Below, in pieces: positions 34,150 to 38,845 of a stretch of DNA of 64,000 bases. Each line of letters begins with the position of its first letter. Within the stretch, counting starts at the first letter, position 1. The position numbers and the translations under genes are program-made. The stretch comes from an uncultured Flavobacteriaceae bacterium (lineage in GTDB: Bacteria > Bacteroidota > Bacteroidia > Flavobacteriales > Flavobacteriaceae): the NCBI GenBank assembly GCA_947502495.1, contig CANNAC010000008.1, forward strand, positions 1-64,000, given 5' to 3'. The notes under the pieces are model-generated. The model saw only the letters and a list, made by a program, of their open reading frames with translations, had not been told where the DNA came from and ran no database searches.

Positions 34150-34447
34150 TGGGCGCCTGCCTGCCGGCAGGCAGGTTACCATACTTCGCTAAAGCTTCGT
34201 ATGGTCGCGCTTTTCGCTATACCTGCCTGCCGGCAGGCAGGTCTTTTCACTTGTTCTCGATACAATACTCCTTGCAGTCGTATCACTCGAACTGACATAA
34301 AAAGGATGTCGCTGCAACTGCGAAGCAATCACGATTTCTTCCTTAATAATATGGATGAGTAATCGCTAACGCGTCTACTTGCTATGGTCTGGTTTCTAAA
34401 CAAAAACTCTTTTCTGTTTGCTAAGAGATTCCTGCCTGCGCAGGAAT
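34150..34447. repeat. cluster of flavobacterial interspersed repeats between metH and metF
   Basis: This gene-free gap contains two copies of CCTGCCTGCCGGCAGGCAGG (about 34161-34180 and 34222-34241) flanking an inverted CATACTTCGC ... GCTTCGTATG stem, with GCGCGACC-type sequence nearby, and the palindrome ATTCCTGCCTGCGCAGGAAT at 34428-34447. The first copy with its flanks (GCGCC and GGTAAC, inverted) recurs upstream of leuB at about 57974. No reading frame was found. Confidence 0.7.
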
Positions 34448-34449
34448 TT

Positions 34450-37400
34450 TTAATCCGCTACATTCGGACTCAACCATTTCTCTGCTTCTTCTAAACTTAT
34501 AGTTCTTCGCTTTGCGTAATCTGCTAACTGGTCTTCTTTAATTTTTCCTAGTCCAAAATACTTCGCTTCCGGATTGGCAAAATAATAACCACTGACACTT
34601 GCTGCTGGCCACATCGCTAAACTTTCAGTAAGTGCTACGCCTATTCTATTGTCTACATCTAACAATTGCCATATCGTTCTTTTTTCTAAATGATCTGGAC
34701 AAGCAGGATAGCCAGGTGCCGGACGAATACCTTTATAGCTTTCTTTTATTAAATCTTGGTTGCTTAGTTTTTCGTCTGCAGCATAACTCCAATATTTGGT
34801 TCTTACTTCTTTGTGTAAATATTCGGCATAAGCTTCTGCTAATCGATCTGCTAATGCTTTTATCATAATGGAATTATAATCATCATGCGCATCTTCAAAT
34901 TGTTTTGCAAGTTCTGCCGTTCCAAATCCTGTAGACACACAAAACGCGCCCATATAATCTTGAATGCCACTTTCTTTAGGAGCAATAAAATCGGAAATAG
35001 AAAGGTTTGGCTTCCCTACTGCTTTTTTAGATTGCTGACGTAGCGTTAAGAAGTTTAAAGTTTCTTTTTGAGATGCTTCGACAAGCTCTGCATGACAATC
35101 CCCAACAGTCACTTCTATATCATCATCATTCACTGTATTTGCAGGAAACAACCCGAAAACAGCCTTCGCTTTTAAAAGTTTTTCTTGAAACACACGTTGT
35201 AATAATTCTTGTGCGTCTTTAAATAATTCGGTTGCTTGTTCTCCAACCACTTCATCAGTTAGAATATCTGGATATTTACCATGTAAATCCCAACTTCTAA
35301 AAAATGGAGACCAATCAATAAAATCTTCTAATTTAGTAATATCAAAATCCTGAAAATCTTGAATTCCTAATTGCTTTGGTTTTGTAATTTGAGAAGTCTT
35401 CCAGTCGATAGCAAACTTGTTTTTACGTGCATCTTCAATCGTTAGATATTCTTTCTTTCTAGTTCTGCTTAAAAACTGTTCTCTAAACTTATCGTATTCT
35501 TCTCTTATTTGTTCTTTATAAATTTTATTGTTTCGGTTTAATAACTCACCAACAACCGTTACTGCTCTAGATGCATCATTAATATGCACGACGGTATTGC
35601 TATAGTTTGGAGCAATTTTAACCGAGGTATGCGCACGAGATGTTGTTGCACCTCCAATAATTATTGGGATAGTAATATTCTTTTTTTCTAAAGATTTAGA
35701 AACATAGACCATTTCATCTAGCGAAGGTGTAATCAATCCGCTTAAACCAATAATATCTACATTTTCTTTAATGGCAGTTTCTACTATTTTTTCTGGCGGT
35801 ACCATAACGCCCAAATCAATGATTTCGTAATTATTACAACCCAAAACAACACTCACGATATTTTTACCAATATCATGTACATCTCCTTTTACGGTTGCCA
35901 TTAATATTTTACCCGCAAATCTAGCCCCTTCCGTCCCCAAAGGGGAAACTTTTAACTCGGCACTGATGCTTTCTAAAACATTTTCAAGATCTGACAAAAC
36001 CGCATCATTTGTAAATCTTATTACACGATATCCATTATCAGCTAACCATTTCGTACGCTCCTCATCAGAAATTTTATTTTCAGGTAATTGGTGTATTAAG
36101 CCATCAATTTCAATGATTAAACTTTGCTTTAAACAAATAAAATCTGTTATATAACTACCAATAATATGTTGACGTCTAAACTTAAAGCCATCTAACTTCT
36201 TTCCACTTAATTCATTCCAAAGCACCTCTTCTGCATGCGTTGGTTTACTGCGCATTTCTTTCGCATAATTTTTTAATAAACCATATAAAATTGGGTCTGC
36301 AGTTTTCCAGTAATAAGTCCCCTTTGGGGATTTAGGGGCTTTCTTCGCTTCCTCTATAAAAGGTTGTAAATAGGCTACCGCTTTTTTCATTACACGAGCT
36401 GATTTTACTACTTGCGGTAAGAACATTTTTCCGCTTCCAAAGAGATCACCAACCACACTCATTCCAATCATTAAATGCCCTTCAATAACTTCTATTGGTC
36501 TTTCGGCAATTTGTCTTGCTTCCTCAACATCTTCAATTATAAAAGCATCAATTCCTTTTACAAGTGCATGTGTAATCCTTTCTTGCAACGGATTGCTTCG
36601 CCATTCTAAAACCTTGGTAACATCTTCTTTCACATTTCCTTTTACGGTTTCAGCAAAGTCTAATAAACGTTCGGTAGCATCGTCACTTCTATCAAATAAA
36701 ACATCTTCTACATGCTTTAATAAATCTTTATCAATCTCATCATAAACCTCTAACATCGTCGGATTTACAATTCCCATATTCATTCCGTTTTGAATGGCAT
36801 GATATAAAAACGCAGCGTTTATAGCCTCGCGAACGGTATTATTTCCTCGAAAAGAAAACGACACATTACTCACACCTCCAGAAACATTGGCATAAGGTAA
36901 GTTTTCACGAATCCATTTGGTGGCTCTAAAGAAATCTAGGGCGTTTAAACGATGCTCATCCATTCCTGTTGCCACAGGAAATATATTAGGATCGAAAATA
37001 ATATCTTGAGGAGCAAATTTTACAACATCGACCAACACATCATACGAACGTTTACAAATTTCGATTCTGCGTTCGTACGTATCTGCTTGTCCGTTTTCAT
37101 CAAACGCCATTACAATTACCGCAGCACCATAACGTTTTACCAGTTTTGCTTGTCGGATAAATTCTGCTTCGCCTTCTTTTAAACTGATAGAATTTACCAC
37201 ACATTTTCCTTGTGCTACTTGCAAACCAGCTTCAATGATTTCCCATTTAGAACTGTCAATCATTAATGGAACACGTGAAATATCTGGTTCGGATGCAATC
37301 AGGTTTAAAAACTTCACCATGGCATACTTTCCGTCCAGCATACCTTCATCCATATTTACATCAATAATTTGTGCGCCACCTTCTACTTGATCTCTAGCAA

Positions 37401-37563: not shown

Positions 37564-37844
37564 TATCTATAATGTTCTACTGTTGGAAATGGTTTGTAAA
37601 AATGATGTAATAAGCCTTTCCACACTTTATATTCTTCAGACTTTCTAAATCCTAATTCATGATCTTCTAAGGTTTCCCAGTTCACTAATAACAAATACTT
37701 ATCTTCTTCTTCGATACATTTTTTGAGTTGATGAGAAATGTATCCTTTCATTGAAGAAATTATTGCTTCTGCGTTTTTAAAGGTTTCTTCAAATTCTTCT
37801 GAAATACCTTCTTTTATCTTTAAAATTGCTACTTCTAATATCAT
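37563..37844 (-). CDS. ABM-domain (antibiotic biosynthesis monooxygenase-like) protein
   Basis: A 93-residue dimeric alpha/beta ferredoxin-like protein of the ABM family ([12 protein letters not shown] ... [21 protein letters not shown] ... [11 protein letters not shown]). It sits between the two metH parts with TAATG overlaps at both junctions, so all three are translationally coupled. Family members include heme-degrading and quinol monooxygenases and many of unknown function. A protective role for cobalamin or homocysteine chemistry would be a guess. Confidence 0.78.
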
Positions 37845-38845
37845 TACGCTTGAATTTGTAATTTTCTTGGGGCATATTTTTTAGCAACGGCAGCAATTGC
37901 TTTAATATGCGCCGGACTTGTACCACAACAGCCACCAATAATATTGATTAAATCGTCTTGTAAATACTCTTCAATATATGCTTGCATCTGTTTTGGAGAT
38001 TCTTCATACTCACCAAAAGCATTTGGCAATCCGGCATTGGGATGCGCAGAAGTATAAAATTCAGTTTCATTAGATAAGCGTTGTAAATAAGGTTTCAATT
38101 GTTCTGCTCCTAGAGCACAATTAAACCCAACACTTAATAAAGGAATATGAGAAATAGAAGCTAAAAAAGCTTCTACCGTTTGGCCAGATAAGGTTCTACC
38201 CGAAGCATCGGTAATCGTACCGGAAACCATTATTGGGATATCGATGTCGCGATCTTCTTTCACTTCTTCAATAGCAAATAATGCTGCTTTTGCATTTAGC
38301 GTATCAAAAATAGTTTCTACTAAAAGTAAATCTACGCCGCCATCGATTAAAGCTTCTACTTGTTGTTTGTAAGCAACGCGTAATTCTTCAAAAGTAATGG
38401 CTCTGTATTCTGGTCTGTTGACGTCTGGAGATAAGCTTGCGGTTTTATTGGTAGGACCAATACTTCCTGCTACAAACCGAGGTTTGTCTGGGTTTTGTTT
38501 GGTAAATTCTTCCGCAACTCTTTTGGCAATTTTAGCAGATTCATAATTTAGCTCGTACACTAAATCTTCCATGTCATAATCTGCCATTGCAATGGTAGTT
38601 CCAGAAAAGGTATTGGTTTCTACAATATCTGCACCAGCTTCAAAATACTTCGCGTGAATGGTTGCAATTGCTTCTGGTTGTGTGAGGGATAGTAAATCGT
38701 TATTCCCTTTTAAAGAAGAAGGATACTCTTTAAAGCGTTCGCCACGAAAATCTTCTTCAGAAAAATTATACTGCTGAAGCATGGTTCCCATCGCGCCATC
38801 GAGAACTAAAATATGTTTTTGTAAAATGTTTTTTATATCAGACAT
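37844..38845 (-). CDS. methionine synthase, homocysteine-binding subunit
   Basis: A 333-residue homocysteine S-methyltransferase domain. The zinc-binding cysteines are in GFNCALG (about residue 243) and GGCCGTSP (about 310-311). It corresponds to the N-terminal barrel of full-length MetH, encoded separately here. It is the first gene after a SAM-I riboswitch, and its stop overlaps the ABM gene start. It should act together with the large metH product two genes on. Confidence 0.92.
   Translation of the reverse strand: MSDIKNILQKHILVLDGAMGTMLQQYNFSEEDFRGERFKEYPSSLKGNNDLLSLTQPEAIATIHAKYFEAGADIVETNTFSGTTIAMADYDMEDLVYELNYESAKIAKRVAEEFTKQNPDKPRFVAGSIGPTNKTASLSPDVNRPEYRAITFEELRVAYKQQVEALIDGGVDLLLVETIFDTLNAKAALFAIEEVKEDRDIDIPIMVSGTITDASGRTLSGQTVEAFLASISHIPLLSVGFNCALGAEQLKPYLQRLSNETEFYTSAHPNAGLPNAFGEYEESPKQMQAYIEEYLQDDLINIIGGCCGTSPAHIKAIAAVAKKYAPRKLQIQA

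Follow-up and report, generated by a model that had tools for sequence, protein, structure and literature searches.

An in-frame DUF559 nuclease-like element with mirrored palindromic ends in methionine synthase and in other conserved genes of Bacteroidota

The window analyzed here is a stretch of 64,000 nucleotides from an uncultured Flavobacteriaceae bacterium (contig CANNAC010000008.1). It contains the methionine synthase gene, metH, and a separate ORF for the homocysteine-binding part of the enzyme (Table 1). Pfam places the domains of this MetH in the order pterin-binding, B12 cap, DUF559, B12-binding, and activation: DUF559 (PF04480; residues 431–537; E 5.7e-35, 119.9 bits vs. a curated cut-off of 20.6) is flanked by B12-binding_2 (residues 326–399) and B12-binding (residues 551–641). 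The only other Pfam match in the insert, to the related family MTES_1575, is below its cut-off. The element contributes 139 codons (APKSPKG...SPLGTEGA), 107 of which make up the Pfam domain; its borders in the protein are Lys|Ala and Ala|Arg, and the DGKQ of congeners is missing there. Both the domain order and the extent of the insert agree with the original prediction, made from the sequence alone, of a DUF559 element placed in frame between the cap and the B12-binding domain. Its statement that the frame runs through without start or stop codons holds in that the frame is open throughout, but ATG codons are present (e.g., the Met of KEMR). The near-identical inverted repeats that it reported at the ends were confirmed: the inner repeat TCCCCAAAGGGGA is perfect (13/13 nt; positions 35934–35946 and 36318–36330), and the complete ends read AGCCCCT-AAA-TCCCCAAAGGGGA and AGCCCCT-TCCG-TCCCCAAAGGGGA, their sole difference being the spacer of 3 or 4 nt.

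Table 1. Features of the interrupted metH gene and its insert (window positions)
Feature	Position	Strand	Description
metH	37563–34450	minus	ORF open throughout, 1037 aa, carries the in-frame insert
Homocysteine-binding part of MetH	37844–38845		Separate ORF
Whole element	35923–36340	minus	418 bp, bounded by AGCCCCT / AGGGGCT
DUF559 nuclease-like domain	35953–36318	minus	122 aa; Pfam, AlphaFold, and PDB matches
Left end (5' in coding sense)	36318–36340	minus	AGCCCCTAAATCCCCAAAGGGGA, translated within APKSPKG
Right (3') end	35923–35946	minus	Mirror of the left end, translated within SPLGTEGA
Left-flank tract, putatively co-converted	36341–36364	minus	24 nt; informative bases of Winogradskyella type, not congener type
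Another in-frame insertion in the same metH	35072–35097	minus	Encodes CHAELVEAS

The interrupted gene is the sole MetH match in its genome (4.07 Mb, 99.7% complete), where no match to MetE (PF01717) was found; the PF01717 control search was positive in 10 of 14 genomes. The enzyme probably works despite the insert. This is the only in-frame element of its kind in the genome, the two further DUF559 matches (43–44% identical) being freestanding genes. Two side observations concern the same region. The second, much shorter insertion in metH (CHAELVEAS) occupies the loop DDDIE...FLTLRQQS, which in five Flavobacterium loci (L077, L088, L120, L125, and L130) holds a DUF559 insert, and the palindrome CCTGCCTGCCGGCAGGCAGG occurs twice between metF and metH (window positions 34156–34241).

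The AlphaFold model of the insert domain (pLDDT 86.6) found its best PDB matches by Foldseek in 3hrl (E 2.1e-7) and 3r3p_B, the catalytic domain of the homing endonuclease I-Bth0305I (E 5.0e-4, probability 1.00, TMt 0.73, rmsd 3.9), with Vsr lower in the list (E 0.06). Sequence profiles matched 3hrl (NGO0050; E 2.7e-27) and 3r3p (E 1.5e-7). Scans against other families were weak (e.g., NCBIfam PRK09767, 77.9 bits vs. a cut-off of 218); the best PHROGs match had an E value of 5.6e-6, and some of the PHROGs matches are annotated as endonucleases. With 107 residues of Pfam domain in 139 codons, the insert lacks any DNA-binding region in addition to the nuclease core, and Pfam detected no transposase domain in it, including HUH tyrosine transposase. 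In the model of a 361-aa piece of MetH (pLDDT 73.6, pTM 0.52), pLDDT exceeds 70 over most of the cap, the DUF559 domain, and the B12 domain, falls below 50 in the palindrome-encoded linkers (residues 110–122 and 243–250 of the model), and is low at the termini of the piece too; the DUF559 domain is predicted to fold independently between low-confidence linkers.

The claim that the insert is not an intein also stood: there is no Hint-type domain in Pfam searches and no Cys/Ser or His-Asn splice-junction residue at its own borders, so that by these tests it is not an intein. A group I or group II intron was likewise rejected. The Rfam search of positions 35700–36600 (E up to 1) returned no intron family, and its single weak match was a sub-threshold CRISPR repeat outside the element.

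Relatives with an empty site, on which the idea of a mobile element depends, were found within the genus. The genus search covered seven genomes, including our own; MetH is uninterrupted at the insert site in all five of the congeners with a MetH match, with protein flanks 88–99% identical, and the sixth congener (G150) has a DUF559 match and no MetH match. In both the DNA and the protein alignment, congeners read PFIEAEK-DGKQ-EFAGKIL where our sequence reads PFIEEAKK-[139 aa]-RFAGKIL. No clear target duplication is apparent at our junction in alignments with relatives. Among the matches listed for 149 genomes of the family, at least 4 MetH genes are filled (our own and those of G146, G015, and G047) and at least 63, counted by eye, are empty; also by eye and among the matches listed, at least 20 matches, in at least 18 of the 149 genomes, lie within open frames of 500 aa or more. 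A short linker is present in 20 of 20 empty MetH stretches (EAEKDGKQ in 7), which were chosen from genes already uninterrupted and show the shape of the empty linker rather than its frequency. The insert in our metH is therefore best read as a derived gain. Two other readings were rejected: a universal MetH domain is ruled out by the empty relatives, and an assembly artifact by the same insertion found again in independent genomes.

The flanks of the insert carry a further trace. We defined informative sites as those that separate three empty congeners (of the five) from three filled Winogradskyella, the closest named filled relatives. Winogradskyella species with a filled MetH include W. litoriviva and W. 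sediminis. Of 255 such sites in the flanks of our metH, 243 are of congener type, 8 of Winogradskyella type, and 4 of neither; the four nearest the insert (+1, −8, −11, and −25) are all of Winogradskyella type, and the next on each side (−30 and +54) are of congener type. A donor-type run beside the insert has a permutation P of 5e-6, and a different alignment gives the same picture. The imported tract measures less than 30 nt on the left and less than 54 nt on the right. This is a putative signature of short co-conversion, resting on only four sites, one of which adjoins the element, and a donor-type flank is what homing with short co-conversion would predict (PMC3943268). The insert itself is only 70–74% identical to those of Winogradskyella, so the true donor is unsampled.

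RecG offers a second view of gain. A 150-genome search found seven full filled alleles and two at contig ends in genus g128, which is probably Flavobacterium because its member G522 groups with Flavobacterium in the MetH tree. The usual empty site is LWKKNEIPPHVLVMTA or a near variant. On a 34-row host tree (29 of the 30 loci fetched in the 150-genome search, with L178 omitted, plus 5 others), the filled alleles require seven changes, of which the starred branches force at least two, and 9 of 500 shuffles are as low. The RecG of G572 is filled within a clade of near-identical empty alleles; in the mosaic test, each flank shows a single donor-type site close to the junction, which is within background. 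As a side observation, the otherwise empty RecG of L188 carries ASPSPSNDGAS precisely at the insertion site, a peptide that resembles joined element ends enclosing Asn-Asp as at some empty sites; it may be an excision scar or the product of another event. When insert cores were compared with flanks in six pairs of carriers, two pairs showed a strong peak of identity in the core (P 7e-8 and 5e-4), two a marginal one (P 0.04), and two none. In the strong pairs, the core is 99.2% identical vs. 92.6% for the flanks (3/357 vs. 133/1800 differences) and 98.9% vs. 95.2% (4/360 vs. 87/1800).

The element is found across the phylum and is not confined to metH. A scan of named genomes returned at least 577 relatives, of which the best 80 were taken on, and in a sample of the phylum matches occurred in 187 of 395 genomes. 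Among 145 distinct matches, 115 lie within open frames of 300 aa or more; because the query was an alignment of in-frame copies and its top-scoring loci were taken, the in-frame share is biased upward and is not a measure of prevalence. Pfam scans of 20 chosen hosts assigned the in-frame copies to 16 protein families: MetH, LeuRS, MetRS, RecG, CinA, adenine deaminase, CoA transferase, histidinol dehydrogenase (C-terminal), UvrD-like helicases, a UvrA-like protein, an Eco57I-type methylase, methylmalonyl-CoA mutase, acetyl-CoA synthetase, an aldehyde dehydrogenase-MaoC protein, GcpE (C-terminal), and an M23 peptidase. These hosts have no common function. MetH has three insertion sites, the third being in the homocysteine domain of L102. 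LeuRS is an essential enzyme, and the interrupted copy is the only LeuRS in 13 of 13 genomes chosen for having an interrupted LeuRS; whatever else the LeuRS search picked up in those genomes is either a copy of DUF559 or a short, weak hit within some other large protein. The interrupted host enzymes probably function. The insertion in metH is real and not ordinary, and the phenomenon extends beyond one gene.

Two observations on hosts stand apart. DNA repair and restriction genes recur among them (UvrD-like, UvrA-like, RecG, and Eco57I-type methylase; L153, L156, L135, L146, and L165). Interrupted MetH was also found in contigs labelled Nitrotoga (Pseudomonadota) and Ignavibacterium (L078 and L101); the host tree puts these MetH sequences beside Flavobacterium and beside a further genome from the phylum of the window, and because of this placement we attribute them to misbinning or transfer.

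The arrangement of the ends recurs with the domain. The threshold for mirrored ends (inverted-repeat score of at least 24 within 150 nt) was reached by 68 of 114 in-frame copies, by 19 of 29 freestanding DUF559 genes, and by only 18 of 263 other ORFs at the same loci (Fisher P 6e-13 for freestanding genes vs. control ORFs); 2 of the 145 matches were left out of this comparison for missing flank. The other 46 in-frame copies score under the threshold, their ends being degenerate, absent, or missed. Palindrome sequences vary among lineages, and insert borders vary among copies. The expectation that the same ends would be repeated at other loci was borne out only in part. On the one hand, the exact ends are not repeated in our genome: the 13-nt TCCCCAAAGGGGA has no further occurrence in its 4.07 Mb, and the 20-nt left-end pattern (up to 3 mismatches) is found at one place, i.e., without dispersal. 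On the other hand, the layout of mirrored ends, each a run of C plus a palindrome, around an in-frame DUF559 domain recurs in other genes of other genomes. Taken singly, our ends do not fold clearly better than shuffled sequences (z −1.8, with 10 of 200 as good, and z −1.1, with 29 of 200).

Freestanding copies have surroundings of their own. At locus L003 (C2 of our genome, 1200–2100), long direct repeats that contain palindromes enclose a freestanding DUF559 gene, and the palindrome CTCCTCCTTGAAAAAAGGAGGAG beside it occurs at eight places in the genome (up to 3 mismatches), three of them in this locus, vs. none for the reversed control. Locus L053 has two freestanding DUF559 genes that are 98% identical, each flanked by repeats of the TGTCCYCTTGAGGGGACTTTAGGGGTGTT type.

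Inserts cluster by insertion site across genera. On a tree of 140 copies, built from few columns and with bootstrap values that have not settled, ten groups (nine sites plus freestanding genes) require 18 changes, against a least possible 9 and 63.9 after shuffling. Of the 113 in-frame copies, 112 fall in one branch (support 97/96) together with 7 of 27 freestanding genes. RecG inserts (7 rows) and CinA inserts (3 rows) each form a single clade; inserts of MetH site 2, MetRS site 1, and adenine deaminase do not. The Flavobacterium copies at MetH site 2 are interspersed with site-1 copies, and the MetRS, adenine-deaminase, and CinA copies share one common branch. Because some sites are mixed in the tree, inserts are taken to reach new sites at times. 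The best cross-site pair comes from L130, whose MetH holds two inserts that are 86.7% identical over 316 nt. Distances among hosts and among inserts are correlated (Mantel r 0.58 for 56 MetH sequences, from the 59 site-1 rows), and vertical descent is therefore common; the MetH host tree rests on these 56 rows as well.

The inserts are under purifying selection: median dN/dS (NG86) is 0.11 for 14 pairs at MetH site 1, 0.09 for 5 RecG pairs, and 0.10 for 7 freestanding pairs, with 2 of 143 cores left out for stops. The putative catalytic residues E28, D57, E68, D70, and H74 (numbering of the conservation analysis) are each retained in 111–113 of 114 in-frame copies. Four of the conserved acidic or His positions were checked against 3r3p, where E68 aligns with a Glu and D57, D70, and H74 are not matched by the same residue.

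Overall, the prediction of a mobile element that spreads as a translated domain is supported by the empty relatives and by the layout recurring in other genes; the site-specific lineages, the relation to a homing endonuclease, and the short donor-type flank go beyond it. We consider it fairly probable that the element is a selfish domain that spreads in a homing-like way without being spliced, has REP-like ends, and occasionally arrives at a new site. In the mechanism that we infer, mirrored palindromic ends, translated as flexible linkers, frame a small nuclease whose fold is that of DUF559 (Vsr / I-Bth0305I-like), and the element occupies a loop of a conserved protein that would tolerate it, so that the host enzyme would keep working and splicing would be unneeded. 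Still joined to its host protein, the nuclease would cut that gene's empty allele close to where the element inserts; repair from the filled allele would copy the element and a few flanking bases (homing), and on rare occasions the element would move to a new site.

Several features could also be produced by transposition: DUF559, by itself or helped by a second enzyme, would act on the palindromic ends in a REP/RAYT-like manner and insert widely, and only in-frame insertions in tolerant loops would survive. The excess of mirrored ends around in-frame copies and freestanding genes over other ORFs, the 16 host families, the L130 MetH with its pair of copies at different sites, and the palindrome dispersed to eight places (three in the same locus, control none) beside a freestanding copy in our genome all fit it. 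However, the grouping of inserts by site across genera is unexpected under random insertion, our junction has no clear target duplication, our ends are not dispersed in the genome, and the insert has no transposase domain; we regard transposition as unlikely. An alternative of a different kind is that ordinary horizontal transfer and homologous recombination spread a neutral or useful in-frame domain whose nuclease does nothing to promote it. The correlation between host and insert distances (r 0.58), the purifying selection, and a domain predicted to fold alone between low-confidence linkers are all compatible with it, whereas the lack of a common function among hosts, an imported tract that appears shorter than ordinary recombination would give, and the retention of putative catalytic residues in nearly all copies make it quite improbable. 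Cryptic removal, in which the segment is excised from RNA or protein to leave an uninterrupted mature enzyme, deserves very little credence. Nothing direct speaks for it, only that homing endonucleases of coding genes usually reside in introns or inteins (PMC3943268); against it are the lack of an Rfam intron family over 35700–36600 and of a Hint-type domain, the borders that differ among copies, and an open frame with codon-level selection through the domain.

In the conserved enzymes concerned, including the sole LeuRS of 13 genomes, the nuclease-type domain lies in frame, and nothing points to splicing. It is about as likely as not that this constitutes a third route, besides introns and inteins, by which a homing endonuclease enters conserved protein genes: the endonuclease would stay in the protein for good as an additional domain, flanked by linkers that the palindromes encode, its hosts would include sole-copy essential enzymes throughout the phylum, and freestanding DUF559 genes between mirrored palindromes would be the intergenic form. 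Searches of an open-access library yielded no description of an in-frame DUF559 insertion, an absence that is no proof of novelty. If confirmed, the finding would give a role to part of DUF559, a large family of unknown function, show that mobile DNA builds multidomain proteins directly, tie the REP-like palindromes found in Bacteroidota to a candidate enzyme, and mark natural insertion-tolerant sites in MetH, LeuRS, MetRS, and RecG.

Among known systems, I-Bth0305I, the EDxHD homing endonuclease of PDB 3r3p, is similar in nuclease fold and sequence. Like homing elements in general, the insert occurs at a given site as both filled and empty alleles and forms lineages specific to a site, although not every site forms a single clade. 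A spread tied to one site with converted flanks is the homing pattern; in our metH, putatively converted flanks show at four sites, and in the RecG of G572 the signal is within background. However, 3r3p was deposited as a mobile intron protein, whereas the insert is fused in frame to its host protein and no intron was found; I-Bth0305I has a long multi-domain DNA-binding structure (PMC3943268) and the insert has the core domain only; and three of the four conserved positions checked (D57, D70, and H74) are not matched by the same residue in 3r3p. In reviews (PMC3943268), homing endonucleases that live inside conserved coding genes depend on an intron or intein that splices. Inteins that carry such an endonuclease are likewise in-frame nuclease elements inside conserved host proteins, but they splice, whereas the insert has no splicing domain or residues and is seemingly retained in the host protein. 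Rickettsia palindromic elements and intragenic REPs resemble the insert as in-frame palindromic DNA in probably working genes, yet these are short palindromes, many of 20 to 30 amino acids (PMC3733652 for both points), and ours has 139 codons with a nuclease-type domain between the palindromes. NGO0050 (PDB 3hrl) and the freestanding DUF559 proteins have the same domain but, unlike the insert, stand alone. In REPtrons (a RAYT with its REPs), as in the DUF559 element and often in the freestanding genes, one small DNA enzyme gene lies between mirrored palindromic repeats; RAYTs, however, are HUH tyrosine transposases with GTAG-tagged REPs (PMC3733652), whereas DUF559 is a nuclease with a different fold, and its gene may form part of a host protein as one of the domains.
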